This document shows, piece by piece, positions 24,339 through 30,494 of a stretch of 46,409 nucleotides of DNA (positions within the stretch are counted from its first letter, which is position 1; each line of letters begins with the position of its first letter). The DNA comes from Sulfurimonas sp. (GTDB lineage: Bacteria; Campylobacterota; Campylobacteria; Campylobacterales; Sulfurimonadaceae): assembly GCA_027063745.1 (NCBI GenBank), contig JAMORG010000029.1:1-46409 (forward strand). Reading direction: 5' to 3'. The notes under the pieces are model-generated. The model did no database searches. It had not been told where the DNA came from and saw only the letters and a program-made list of their open reading frames with translations. The translations under genes were made by a program, and so were the position numbers.

Positions 24339-24788
24339 TTAGAGATTATTCATAAAGTTTGGATATATTTTTTTAATTATATAGTAAATTTTGCAACCTA
24401 TACAAAAATTAAAAAATACATCCAGTAAAGAACAACTTAAAAATACACCTGCAACAGCAAGTGTGAGCGTATAGTTATCGATATAATGAGATAGTATGAG
24501 CAACAGAACAAAAAGTAGTCCAAAATAAGCGGCCAAACGTTTTGCACCGCCATCTGTGTAGCTCTCACCAATACCAAAAACATTTTTAAAAAAAGTAGCC
24601 AAAAGGTTAATAGGTGAGAGTCCTGCATTACAAAAAAGACGCATCACAAAATCAAATGCCAAGAAAAAGAGTATAAAAACCAAACCACTGTAGAGATAAA
24701 CAAGAACACTCAAAGCAACAAACAAAGAGTTAAAGCGTGCTATATTTGCATCGACTTTTTCAAAGTTAAGTGGACATGAGACTGACAT
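24339..24788 (-). CDS. DUF4395-like membrane protein
   Basis: Probable start MSVSCPL (about 24788) rather than the ORF-track MIIILQ start, since AAAAAGG lies just upstream of it; SCPLNFEKVDANIARFNSLFVAL, DFVMRLFCNAGLSPIN. Confidence 0.7.
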   Translation of the reverse strand: MSVSCPLNFEKVDANIARFNSLFVALSVLVYLYSGLVFILFFLAFDFVMRLFCNAGLSPINLLATFFKNVFGIGESYTDGGAKRLAAYFGLLFVLLLILSHYIDNYTLTLAVAGVFLSCSLLDVFFNFCIGCKIYYIIKKIYPNFMNNL

Positions 24789-25061
24789 AAAAATACCTTT
24801 TTGTAAAATAATAATCAAATTTTAGTGATATTTTCTTAAAGTTAAACTATATTTTTTTCTTATATTTAAAACTTATCTCTATAGGCATCGATTTTTCTTA
24901 TATTGTCTTAATATCTTCCTCTTTTACTATTACATAGTACCACTCATAAAAATTATTCTATCCCTTTTTCATAAAATTTGATGCAAATGTGATATAGAGA
25001 ATTGAAATATGTGTTATAATTTAAACTTAAATCTATAAACTTTAAAAAAGGAAATAAAACG

Positions 25062-26420
25062 ATGAAAAAAATCATGAGTGTACTCTCTTTTGCACTGCTT
25101 TTAAGTGCAAATGACACCAGTACAACAAATGCACTCTCGTTAAATGAAGCTTTGACACTTTTAGATGCTCAAAACCTTGAGATAAAAGCTGCCAAACTTG
25201 ATGTAAAGAGTGCACAAGAGCAGATACAGACTGTTTCGGGAATGAATTGGGGAAAACTTACTTTTACACAGGATGTTGCACGTTCTAATGATGCAGGTAA
25301 TGTTTTTGGATTTAAGCTCACCTCACGTGAGGCAACTTTTGGTGACTTTGGATTTTCAGAATTCAGTATGACAAATCCTAATATTTTAAAAGTACAACCA
25401 AAAGACCTAAACTATCCAGGATACAGAAATCTCTACCAAAGCAAACTCAAATATGAAGTGCCTCTTTTTACAGGCTTTGCTATCAGTAGTTATACAAACA
25501 TTATGAAAGAGATGAAAAAGATAAAATCTCTTGATAAAGATAAAATCATGACTGAAAAGTCATATGAACTTCGTAAGAGTTTTTACGACATGGCACTTTT
25601 GGATTCAAGTATAAAAAATCTTGAAAAGATTTTACATAACATTGAAACTTTGGAAAATACTACACAGGAGATGATAAACGTAGGTTATGCCAAACATGTT
25701 GACCTTCTTGAAGTCAAAGCAAAAAAGGGAAATGTTGAGAGACTTTTAGTAGAGATGAGAGCCAACAAAAAACTTCTCTATCACTACATCAGCTTTCTAC
25801 TCAACAAAAAAGTTGACAAAATCATACCTCCCGTCTCGGAAGTACCAATGCCTAACTTCACTGATGATGAAGTTCTCTCACGCAACATCGACATACAAAA
25901 AGCAACAACAGCTTTAGAGATTCGTAAAAGTATGCTCGATGCAAATGAGGCTGCATACTACCCTACTGTAGGTGCTTTTGGAGAAGTTGCAACTGCTGAT
26001 GACACCTTCTTGGGTGACGCAAGTGACCATAAAGCATACACTATAGGCGCAAGACTTAGCTGGAATCTCTTCAACGGTGGTATTGATAGTGCAAAAATAG
26101 AACAGGCAAAAATCGAAAAGATGAAAATGCGTACACAAGTTGAACTTGCAAAAAAAGGTATAGCACTAAAACTTGCAAAAATTCATACAGAGCTAGAGAG
26201 TCAAAATGCTCAAATCGCATCTTTAGAAAAAGAGCTTGAACTTGCAAATGCCATCTATGAAAATTATGAAGGCAGATACAAAGAAAAGATTGTCTCTATG
26301 AGTGATGTCATCATCAAACAATCAGCTCAGATAGAGAAAATTCTGCAACTACAAATTGCAAAAAATAAAAGAATAGAAAAAATATTCGCATTAGAAAAAT
26401 TAGCAAATGGAGATAAATAG
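25062..26420 (+). CDS. TolC-family outer membrane efflux protein
   Basis: 452 aa; signal peptide; LSLNEALTLLDAQNLEIKAAKLDVKSAQEQI...GARLSWNLFNGGIDSAKIEQAK. Confidence 0.92.
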   Translation: MKKIMSVLSFALLLSANDTSTTNALSLNEALTLLDAQNLEIKAAKLDVKSAQEQIQTVSGMNWGKLTFTQDVARSNDAGNVFGFKLTSREATFGDFGFSEFSMTNPNILKVQPKDLNYPGYRNLYQSKLKYEVPLFTGFAISSYTNIMKEMKKIKSLDKDKIMTEKSYELRKSFYDMALLDSSIKNLEKILHNIETLENTTQEMINVGYAKHVDLLEVKAKKGNVERLLVEMRANKKLLYHYISFLLNKKVDKIIPPVSEVPMPNFTDDEVLSRNIDIQKATTALEIRKSMLDANEAAYYPTVGAFGEVATADDTFLGDASDHKAYTIGARLSWNLFNGGIDSAKIEQAKIEKMKMRTQVELAKKGIALKLAKIHTELESQNAQIASLEKELELANAIYENYEGRYKEKIVSMSDVIIKQSAQIEKILQLQIAKNKRIEKIFALEKLANGDK

Positions 26421-27176
26421 ATGAAAAAACTACTACTAATACTGGCTCTTGGAGCTTCACTTATGGCAGAAGTCCTAACACTTTCAGGAAGCGTAATATC
26501 AGATAATGAAAAGATGATAACAAGCCGTTTTATGGGCTTTGTAACAAAAGTAAATGTGAGTGAAGGCGAAAAAGTAAAGCGTGGTGATATTTTATACACG
26601 ATTGACTCACGTGAGATAGACTCGGCAAAACGTCAGGCTGAACTCTCACTGCAAATGTATCAAAACCAGTACAATAATGTAAAAATCAATCTTGAGCGTC
26701 ACAGACGCCTCCTTGCAAAAGATATGGTTTCAAAGTATGAAGTAGAAAATCTTGAACTGGCAGAAAAAAACCTTAAAGATATGATAAATATCGCAAAAGC
26801 AAGACTCCATGAAGTAGAAAACCAGTACAAATATCTTGTCATCAAAGCACCAAATGATGGTGTCATTGTAAGAAAAAGCATAAAAGTCGGTGAGATGGCG
26901 ATGCCAGGTATGCCGGCTATTATCCTTTCAGACCTCTCAGACCTTAAAATTTTTGCTGAGATTAGTGAAAGTAATCTGAACAACATTGAATATGACAAAA
27001 AAGTTGTTGTTAAAATCCCATCTATCGGCTTTAAAACAATAGGTAAAATCAATGCGATTATTCCAAGTTCAAACCCTATGACACACACATTTAAAATAAA
27101 AGTCAGTTTTGATAAAAATCATAACAATAAAATCTTTCCTGGAATGTATGCAACTGTTGACATAAAGGCAGACTAA
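26421..27176 (+). CDS. RND efflux periplasmic adaptor subunit (membrane fusion protein)
   Basis: 251 aa; GSVISDNEKMITSRFMGFVTKVNVSEGEKVKRGDILYTID...IKAPNDGVIVRKSIKVGEMAMPGMPAIILSDLSDL. Confidence 0.92.
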   Translation: MKKLLLILALGASLMAEVLTLSGSVISDNEKMITSRFMGFVTKVNVSEGEKVKRGDILYTIDSREIDSAKRQAELSLQMYQNQYNNVKINLERHRRLLAKDMVSKYEVENLELAEKNLKDMINIAKARLHEVENQYKYLVIKAPNDGVIVRKSIKVGEMAMPGMPAIILSDLSDLKIFAEISESNLNNIEYDKKVVVKIPSIGFKTIGKINAIIPSSNPMTHTFKIKVSFDKNHNNKIFPGMYATVDIKAD

Positions 27177-27177
27177 A

Positions 27178-28797
27178 ATGAAAGAAAAAGATTTATCACA
27201 TATAAAAGTTACCGACTATGCAGGAAAGCTGGCCAAAGGGTTTCTATACAACCCTTTAACAGCTCTGCTTGCTGTATTTCTTCTTGTTTTGGGATATATT
27301 TCACTTGAAGTTATGCCGCGTGAGGAAGATCCACAAATTGCCATAAGTGGTGGTAGTGTTATCGTTGTCGCACCTGGCATGAGCCCAAAACAGGTGGAGA
27401 AGGTCATCGTAGATCCACTTGAGCAAAAACTGCGTGAGATTAAAGGGGTTGAGCATATCTACTCTATGAGCATGGAGAATGTAGCTGTTGTTAATGTAAT
27501 GTACTACATTGGACAAAACCGTGAGATATCAAACCTAAAACTCTATGACAAAGTGATGCAAAATATGGATAAGATGCCAAAAAGCATTATGCAGCCACTT
27601 GTCAAACCTTTTGATATTGATATTGATATTCCTATCGTTACTATTGCTTTTTACAGAGATCAAAACTCTCAGATTCCTTATGTAAAGTTTCTTGAAACTG
27701 TAGAAAACCTCAAACGTGATATCAGCCAGATTGAGAATGTTTCTAAAACAACACTCAAAGGTGCCCATAAAGAACAGTACAATGTAGAAGTAGATCTTGC
27801 AAAACTTAAAGGCTATCACATCTCACTCGGACAAATTATGCAAGGTATTCAAGCCATCGCAAAAATTGCTCCTGCTGTTGATACAGCTACAAAAGAGAAC
27901 AAACTAGTAGTCTTTGGTGTTAAAAATGCCATTGAAAGTGTAGAAGATGTTCAAAGTATCATTATCGCTCAGTATATGGGAAGTCCAATCTACCTGCGTG
28001 ATGTTGCAACAGTAACAGACGGCATAGATTTTCAAAATAAACAGAGTGCACTGCTTACTATGAAAGAAAACGATAAAATCCTCCAAACGAAGCAGATGAC
28101 ACTGACAGTATCAAAGCTTGCAGGGTCAAATGCTGTATTTGTCTCTGATGATGTAAAAGCAATGCTTCAAAAAAACAAAAAATATTTAGAGAATCTGGGT
28201 ATTCATTACAAAATCACCAGAGACTATGGTGTACGTGCTGATGATGCCGTAAATGAACTTGTGCATCACCTTGTCATTACCATTGCCATTATTGCTGTAA
28301 TGCTCATCTTTTTCCTTGGATGGAAAGAGTCTCTCATTGTTACCTTTACAGTACCTGCAATTTTAGCAATCACTCTTTTTGTGGCATATATGACGGGACA
28401 AACTATCAATCGTATTACACTTTTTGCATTCCTGCTATCCCTTGGACTGCTTGTTGATGCTGCGATTATTGTTATAGAAAATATTCACAGACATCTTCAT
28501 GATCATAACAGTGTACACAAAGATATGGATACGCTACTTATAAAAGCTACAGATGAGATTGGACGTCCTACAAACATTGCAACACTTGCTATCATCTTAA
28601 CAATGGTACCGATGCTGTTTGTTGGGGGAATGATGGGAGAGTTTATGAAACCTATCCCACAAAATGTCCCTGTGGCACTTCTAGCATCTTTAATAGTTGC
28701 TTATATCTTTACACCATACTTAAGTAGAAAACTACTCAAACGAAAAGAAGATGGCGCACATAAACATACACACCATACCAACAAGGAGGAGAAATAA
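27178..28797 (+). CDS. RND efflux transporter, N-terminal half (split subunit)
   Basis: 539 aa; YISLEVMPREEDPQIAISGGSVIVVAPGMSPKQVEKVIVDPLEQKLREIKGV...LLSLGLLVDAAIIVIENIHRHL; ends GAHKHTHHTNKEEK. Confidence 0.92.
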   Translation: MKEKDLSHIKVTDYAGKLAKGFLYNPLTALLAVFLLVLGYISLEVMPREEDPQIAISGGSVIVVAPGMSPKQVEKVIVDPLEQKLREIKGVEHIYSMSMENVAVVNVMYYIGQNREISNLKLYDKVMQNMDKMPKSIMQPLVKPFDIDIDIPIVTIAFYRDQNSQIPYVKFLETVENLKRDISQIENVSKTTLKGAHKEQYNVEVDLAKLKGYHISLGQIMQGIQAIAKIAPAVDTATKENKLVVFGVKNAIESVEDVQSIIIAQYMGSPIYLRDVATVTDGIDFQNKQSALLTMKENDKILQTKQMTLTVSKLAGSNAVFVSDDVKAMLQKNKKYLENLGIHYKITRDYGVRADDAVNELVHHLVITIAIIAVMLIFFLGWKESLIVTFTVPAILAITLFVAYMTGQTINRITLFAFLLSLGLLVDAAIIVIENIHRHLHDHNSVHKDMDTLLIKATDEIGRPTNIATLAIILTMVPMLFVGGMMGEFMKPIPQNVPVALLASLIVAYIFTPYLSRKLLKRKEDGAHKHTHHTNKEEK

Positions 28798-30494
28798 TGC
28801 CACACCATCACCACGAAGGTAAAAAGTTTGAAAACTTTGTATTTAATATTTTAAAAACTCCTTCTAAAAAAGTATTTGTAATCATCGCTGTAATTATTGC
28901 GCTTGTCGGAAGTATTATGATGCTGCCTACAAAAGCAGTAATGGCTAGAATGCTGCCTGGAAAAAGTGCAAATACTTTTAATGTCTATGTCACTACACCA
29001 GCTGGTAGTTCCATAGAAGAGACAAAAGCAGTTTCTCAATGTGTTGTTGATCAACTTACAAAAGAAAAAGAGATAACTGACATTGAGACATTTTTGGCAC
29101 AGGGAGCTCCACTTGACTATGCAGGTCTTGTAAAAGGAAGTGCACTTAAACAGGGTGAACGTTTTGCAGAAATCGTAGTCAATCTTACTGACAAACATGA
29201 ACGTGAAGAGAAGTCATTTACCATGGTGCATCGTCTGCGTCCTGAGATTAAAAAAGAGTGTGGAAATATCATAAAAGAGACAACTATTTCATTTATTGAG
29301 ATGCCATCAGGTCCTCCGACTTTAGCTGCAATAGCAGTCGAAGTGTATGGAGACAAAAATTCCGATGTACTTAAAGTTGCCAATGATGTTGCACATATTT
29401 TGAAAAAAACTCCAAAACTTGTTGATGTAGATATTATGAGTGAAACACCTTATGACAGATATCAACTCATACCATTAAAAGATAAAATAGCAAAAAGTGG
29501 ACTAACAGTAGAACAGGTAAACAATATTCTTTATCTTGCTTTTAAAGGGATGGAAGTTGCCGTTAAAAATACCATTGAGATAAATGATCAAGTTGGTATT
29601 TTTGTATCACTAAGCCGTGATTCAAAAAAACTTTCAAACTCTACTTTAAATGCATTAAGTGCAAAACTTTCATCTTTATATCTTATGAACAAAAAAGGTA
29701 TGATGGTTCCGCTTACAGAAATAGTTGATATTGTAAAAATAAAATCAACACCGACTATCTATCATAAAGATTTAAAAACTATGGTAAATGTCATTGCTGA
29801 GACCGATATGGAATCTCAAGTATATCCACTCTTAGAAGCTCGCCAGACAATGATAGAGTACTTCGGTGAGCATGGATATGAAGTTAGCAAAGTACCTGGT
29901 ATCACAACGTTTATGTTTGATTTGAACTTAAAAGACAAACAAACAGGTAAAGAGTATCTTATTCGCTGGGATGGTGAGATGAAAGTAACTCTTGATACTT
30001 TTAGGGACTTGGGAGCTGCATTTATCGCTGCACTGATACTTATCTATCTTTTACTTGTTATTTATTACAAATCATTTGCTATCAGTGGTATAGTTTTAGC
30101 GGGAAGCTTTCTCTCTATTATTGGAGTAATTGTTGGTCACTGGGTGGCAGATCTTGTAACAGTTGATGTTTTCTTTCTGACAGCGACATCTCTTATTGGC
30201 TTTATTGCTCTTATGGGTATTAGCTCACGTAACTCACTCTTACTCATAGACTTTGCAAAGTCACTTATGGAAGAAAAAGGTATAGAGAAGCGTCGTGCTA
30301 TTGCCATAGCAAGTGCTACACGTGCTAAACCTATTATGCTTACAGCGATTGCCATCATCTTAGGTTCTGCCCTTCTTGCAAGTGATCCTATCTTTGGTGG
30401 TCTTGGAGTTGCACTTATCTCTGGTACAGTAGCTGCAGTTATTGTATCGCTTATCTTCATTCCGGTTCTTATGGATAATACAAAAGCTCTTTAG
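28797..30494 (+). CDS. RND efflux transporter, C-terminal half (split subunit)
   Basis: 565 aa; MPHHHHEGKKFENF...MARMLPGKSANTFNVYVTTPAGSSIEETKAV...TATSLIGFIALMGISSRNSLLLIDFAKSLMEEKGIEKRRAIAIASATRAKPIMLTAIAIILG. Confidence 0.92.
   Translation: MPHHHHEGKKFENFVFNILKTPSKKVFVIIAVIIALVGSIMMLPTKAVMARMLPGKSANTFNVYVTTPAGSSIEETKAVSQCVVDQLTKEKEITDIETFLAQGAPLDYAGLVKGSALKQGERFAEIVVNLTDKHEREEKSFTMVHRLRPEIKKECGNIIKETTISFIEMPSGPPTLAAIAVEVYGDKNSDVLKVANDVAHILKKTPKLVDVDIMSETPYDRYQLIPLKDKIAKSGLTVEQVNNILYLAFKGMEVAVKNTIEINDQVGIFVSLSRDSKKLSNSTLNALSAKLSSLYLMNKKGMMVPLTEIVDIVKIKSTPTIYHKDLKTMVNVIAETDMESQVYPLLEARQTMIEYFGEHGYEVSKVPGITTFMFDLNLKDKQTGKEYLIRWDGEMKVTLDTFRDLGAAFIAALILIYLLLVIYYKSFAISGIVLAGSFLSIIGVIVGHWVADLVTVDVFFLTATSLIGFIALMGISSRNSLLLIDFAKSLMEEKGIEKRRAIAIASATRAKPIMLTAIAIILGSALLASDPIFGGLGVALISGTVAAVIVSLIFIPVLMDNTKAL

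Follow-up and report, generated by a model that had tools for sequence, protein, structure and literature searches.

RND permeases usually consist of one long chain with two fused repeats, and the proton relay of AcrB comprises Asp407/408, Lys940, Arg971, and Thr978. MdtBC constitutes a heteromeric RND permease and forms a heterotrimer (PMC8277102). For SecD/SecF, both separate and fused forms have been described, and a later fusion of originally separate genes is favored (PMC4139356), which is the reverse of the direction that the split pump considered here would have taken. In the window (i.e., the whole 46,409-nucleotide stretch of Sulfurimonas sp. DNA that was analyzed, one contig of an assembly comprising 131 contigs and 82% complete), an RND permease is encoded by two ORFs. 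The N half (27178-28797, + strand, 539 aa) contains TM1, a periplasmic domain, and TM2-TM6, while the C half (28797-30494, + strand, 565 aa) contains an amphipathic helix, TM7, a periplasmic domain, and TM8-TM12. HAE-type RND permeases are single polypeptides of about 1030 aa; the locus encodes 539 and 565 aa instead.

The Pfam ACR_tran profile (PF00873) is divided between both ORFs: the N half corresponds to profile positions 7-499 and the C half to positions 515-820 (best stretch) and a further stretch, with scores that greatly exceed the gathering score for either ORF. Because these profile parts are complementary, the two halves together correspond to one full permease. The first-pass annotation had described an RND transporter in two polypeptides, and the ORFs were recovered exactly where it had placed them. 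The window genome contains one copy of the split permease, and its nearest named relatives are Sulfurimonas indica and Sulfurimonas MAGs (86-87% identity in the C half); the split operon is also present in S. indica (locus L033). Matches to each half of another RND are located at or near contig ends of the same genome (loci L141 and L142 on contigs C30 and C82); they probably constitute one single-chain gene broken by the assembly.

The two ORFs meet in a TAATG junction (28795-28799, + strand), in which the TAA of the N half (28795-28797) and the ATG of the C half (starting at 28797) share one base. A Shine-Dalgarno sequence for the C half, AAGGAGG (28783-28789, + strand), lies 7 nt before the ATG; the overlap and the strong ribosome-binding site were thus found exactly as the first reading had given them. 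The N half ends with GAHKHTHHTNKEEK, and the C half starts with MPHHHHEGKK. Among 111 distinct junctions read from the split branch, the C start is offset from the N stop by -1 in 46, -4 in 34, and 0 in 13, so that an overlap of -1 or -4 occurs in 80. A start codon with an SD-like sequence is located at the junction in nearly all split relatives, although this statistic is slightly biased, as the start was chosen partly by its SD. The relative reading frames of the halves are distributed 85/14/12 over the 111 junctions. This variation in frame, together with the start codon and the SD-like sequence, points to coupled re-initiation rather than a conserved frameshift, in agreement with the independent, coupled initiation proposed before. 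A programmed frameshift or stop read-through that fuses both ORFs, making the split merely apparent, would be compatible with ORFs that overlap or abut, with the -1 frame of the window's C half, and with the 13 relatives in which the stop is followed directly by an ATG in the same frame. However, such a fusion is very improbable and was rejected mainly on the variable junction frame; besides, no heptameric slippery site was seen on reading the ~33-nt ORF overlap of the window, and the start codons at nearly all junctions have their own SD-like sequences.

The arrangement is common among relatives. Two hundred genomes of the order were sampled, and split loci were counted by eye among the C-half matches listed. 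About 131 of these matches are split loci with a half-length open frame (a few of them cut by contig ends), while 18 are single-chain loci (38-43% C-half identity, frame of about 1090-1180 codons), eight of which were read. All 111 distinct junctions of the split branch are split, many of them from single-contig genomes, which answers positively the question of whether close relatives share the division. The split pair is also present on two annotated plasmids (from Sulfurovum mangrovi and pSULKU01 from Sulfuricurvum kujiense). In RefSeq, the halves from S. mangrovi and S. kujiense are separate intact genes, both named 'efflux RND transporter permease subunit'. A sequencing indel, an assembly error, or a decaying pseudogene might come to mind, given the incomplete source assembly of 131 contigs, but it has a negligible probability: the same split at 111 distinct junctions, single-contig genomes included, led to its rejection, and functional residues are invariant in both halves. 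Nearly all other RND paralogs encoded by these genomes consist of one chain (about 1020-1060 aa); therefore, the split is specific to one family and does not reflect a habit of the phylum.

Several loci deviate in their surroundings or in their records. L131 and L132 (genomes G016 and G141) represent a second, diverged split copy, with the adaptor gene after the permease or on the opposite strand. The pair on pSULKU01 (L146) is strongly diverged and located behind a TetR regulator, with TolC and adaptor genes nearby on the other strand. Two records that contain this Campylobacterota locus (L044 and L051) bear the titles Helicobacter pylori PMSS1 MAG and Desulfosporosinus MAG; probably these titles are wrong or the bins are contaminated.

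In a 70-row phylogenetic tree rooted on single-chain RNDs, all split rows form one clade (SH-aLRT 100), and the single-chain Campylobacterota rows all fall into its sister clade (SH-aLRT 98). The split clade was likewise obtained with a mixture model for 35 rows (100/100, in 100% of bootstraps), where support for the single-chain sister clade is weaker (86/81). No single-chain member occurs inside the split clade in either tree, i.e., no re-fusion was seen. As all outgroups are single-chain, the simplest history would be one ancient break in the cytoplasmic loop that joins TM6 and TM7, without re-fusion and retained in all descendants examined. The age of the split is suggested by members of the clade that share only 45% identity with the window. 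Judged from these sequences, the split permease is a real, ancient, clade-wide variant across Campylobacterota relatives. The view of the first-pass annotation is supported in this respect: the split is genuine, old, and maintained, with independent, coupled initiation and no recent frameshift.

The permease genes belong to an operon with almost no spacing between its members. The first gene encodes a TolC-family outer membrane channel (25062-26420, + strand; Pfam OEP, 7.2e-31), present in 60 of 65 related loci checked. It is followed by a gene for a periplasmic adaptor, or membrane fusion protein, of 251 aa (26421-27176, + strand; TIGR01730 RND_mfp above cut-off, HlyD_D23), present in 63 of the 65. 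The order TolC-adaptor-N-C is kept in most of these loci, and the adaptor and the channel are co-encoded as expected for HAE-type RND systems. The operon is often located beside serA-rpsA (serA adjoins it in 34/65 loci). A clue to function was sought by following the window's own neighbors through the 65 loci and was rejected, since the neighbors in common are the housekeeping genes serA and rpsA. A gene for a DUF4395 membrane protein (24339-24818, - strand) is divergent from the operon; it adjoins the operon in just 2/65 loci and probably lies outside the split-pump system.

The alignment with AcrB and CusA places the fission site in the cytoplasmic loop that connects TM6 to the amphipathic helix in front of TM7, i.e., at the seam of the two repeats. 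The relay residues are divided between the halves: Asp427 in TM4 of the N half corresponds to AcrB Asp407, while Arg478, Arg509, and Thr516 of the C half correspond to AcrB Lys940, Arg971, and Thr978. All four are invariant over 49-51 family rows. The equivalent of AcrB Asp408 is Ala in the window and Ser or Asp in relatives, and Arg takes the place of Lys940; having one relay Asp in TM4, where AcrB has two, counts against the pump model given below. AlphaFold2 models of each half folded singly (from alignments without the two plasmid rows) have a moderate mean pLDDT (75.6 for N and 76.0 for C), with values below 50 at the last 15 residues of the N half (525-539) and the first seven of the C half. 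In Foldseek searches, each model matches AcrB/AcrD/CmeB-type chains over about half the length of the target, with E values of about 1e-26 to 1e-19 and TMq of about 0.64-0.74.

Two conserved features were noted beside the relay. Cys82 and Cys155 in the periplasmic domain of the C half are both present in 50/51 rows and both missing in L123, while the single-chain sister L117 has neither equivalent; they behave like a disulfide pair of Campylobacterota members. After TM4, residues 434-441 of the N half form an invariant ENIHR..H motif (IENIHRHLH), common to the single-chain sisters and, in part, to distant plasmid-borne relatives.

As the relay is divided, and given the established mechanism of AcrB, neither half should pump alone. 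Half-size RND proteins occur in some prokaryotes, and each half keeps a full structural repeat; the halves might accordingly be independent 6-TM half-transporters working apart, e.g., as homo-oligomers. This is highly unlikely, however, with the Asp of the relay only in the N half and the Arg, Arg, and Thr only in the C half, and with the two halves side by side and coupled in every split locus read. The locus very probably encodes a tripartite TolC-adaptor-RND pump with the permease as an obligate two-subunit protein, derived from one ancient fission. In this pump, an ancestral 12-TM permease would have been broken once, in the cytoplasmic loop that follows TM6 and ends at the amphipathic helix leading into TM7, at the seam of its two 6-TM repeats. 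Both halves would be made from one mRNA by coupled translation, using the overlapping stop and start with their own ribosome-binding site, and would re-associate so that an N.C pair takes the place of one AcrB protomer. Three such pairs would most likely form a trimer. Protons would pass through the shared relay (Asp427 in TM4 of N and Arg478, Arg509, and Thr516 in TM10/TM11 of C), and the proton flow (presumably by antiport) would drive the export of a substrate that is probably HAE-type, i.e., amphiphilic or envelope-toxic, by family resemblance.

The assignment to the HAE type is based on drug-type profile models and structures, which are the nearest matches to the split permease. With the HAE subfamily model NF033617, the halves reached 242.5 and 122 bits, compared with a cut-off of 1250, a full-length threshold beyond the reach of halves. 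TIGR00914 (CusA/CzcA) scored 152.9 and 61.1 bits against 701.45, below the HAE models. The residues aligned with the CusA Met triad (Met573, Met623, and Met672) are not Met in any member shown, the alignment being loose, most of all near Met672. The TM4 of the N half (GLLVDAAIIVIEN) contains VDAA, i.e., the single TM4 acid typical of HME members, from which the first-pass annotation had derived a resemblance to heavy-metal pumps. That assignment was rejected as non-diagnostic, since family members differ at the position of the second acid (besides VDAA, the sisters show VDSA, and L123 and L131 show VDDA); the missing Met triad and the TIGR00914 score far below its cut-off also speak against it.

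The N half terminates in a charged, His-containing, disordered cytoplasmic tail (28738-28794, + strand; approximately KRKEDGAHKHTHHTNKEEK), characterized by low pLDDT and by His enrichment in relatives. His accounts for 16% of the tail vs 2% of the rest of the N half. In the genome-contig set, at least three His within the last 20 residues are present in 48/68 N-half tails vs 5/360 other C-termini. The YGICExC motif (CxxC), resembling a zinc-finger knuckle, replaces or accompanies the His cluster in five Sulfurovum-like N-half tails (L052, L059, L070, L076, and L098). C halves with a His-rich start occur mainly in Sulfurimonas-like members, and 82/111 sequences contain no His in their first eight residues; L146 has a short His-rich start of its own (MHHHKP). 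Single-chain sisters have short linkers (EHKNEHKEPFD and similar) in which a His cluster is lacking, and the N tails of the deepest split branch (L121, L122, L124, and L146) are devoid of His. The His tail, absent from both, therefore arose after the fission. An ancestral His-rich linker was rejected on the same grounds, and the idea that the fission occurred inside a metal-binding linker is not supported. Of the His clusters reported for both new termini, the enrichment of the N tail stands, while that of the C-half start is mainly a Sulfurimonas-like trait.

Cytoplasmic metal binding by the His-rich tail is, at most, a fair hypothesis as far as the sequence goes. The enrichment of the tails (48/68 vs 5/360), the CxxC motif, and record titles that place several hosts at sulfidic or vent-like sites would suit a CusA/CzcA-type heavy-metal pump with His-rich tails that bind or sense metal in the cytoplasm and regulate its assembly or activity. 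Such a pump is nevertheless unlikely: the drug-RND models score higher than TIGR00914, no Met occupies the CusA 573/623/672 positions, the His-rich tail is missing from the single-chain sisters as well as from the deepest split branch, and those of the window's own neighbors that recur in relatives are housekeeping genes. In Nitratiruptor, a related vent bacterium, transcriptomics revealed a Cd-induced cluster with a probable RND gene (PMC10092412). A quite doubtful extension of the two-subunit pump is that the freed termini serve as a regulatory device, with His-rich (in some species CxxC) tails binding metal and controlling the joining or activity of the halves; if true, a metal signal from the cytoplasm would govern the assembly or the gating of an RND pump.

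The halves are already listed in databases; no description of a split drug-type (HAE-type) RND permease was found in the open-access literature. The phylum-wide split branch amounts to a natural experiment, in which the importance of the covalent link for the proton-driven conformational cycle can be judged, and it offers a ready-made system for changing or labeling one half independently of the other. As both halves carry the RefSeq name of a complete subunit, annotators may mistake them for fragments or count them as two pumps.

Compared with known systems, the split permease shares its fold, operon partners, and relay positions with HAE-type RND proteins (AcrB, MdtB, CmeB, and TriC), from which it differs by its two polypeptides, the replacement of the second TM4 Asp by Ala, the Arg in place of AcrB Lys940, and the disordered His-rich tail. 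The single-chain Campylobacterota sisters (families f13, f16, and f17; loci L113-L120) are 46-49% (N) and 38-41% (C) identical to the split form; they have the same gene order TolC-adaptor-permease, the IENIHRH motif, and, in most cases, the Cys pair, but each is encoded as a single frame of about 1090-1180 codons, and the short linker (EHK..EPFDIKKTKTY) has no His cluster. CusA/CzcA (HME) share the single TM4 acid (VDAA) and the overall fold, whereas the split permease fails TIGR00914, contains no Met triad, and is nearer to HAE proteins in sequence. In MdtBC, either partner is a full 12-TM protein, unlike the half-proteins of the split pump, where each ORF spans one half of the profile only. 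Within the RND superfamily, the precedent is SecD/SecF vs fused SecDF, where some bacteria have two 6-TM halves and others a single chain; yet SecD/SecF is a protein-export accessory with different periplasmic domains, and the best SecDF match of the split permease reaches 30.9 bits against a threshold of 500.
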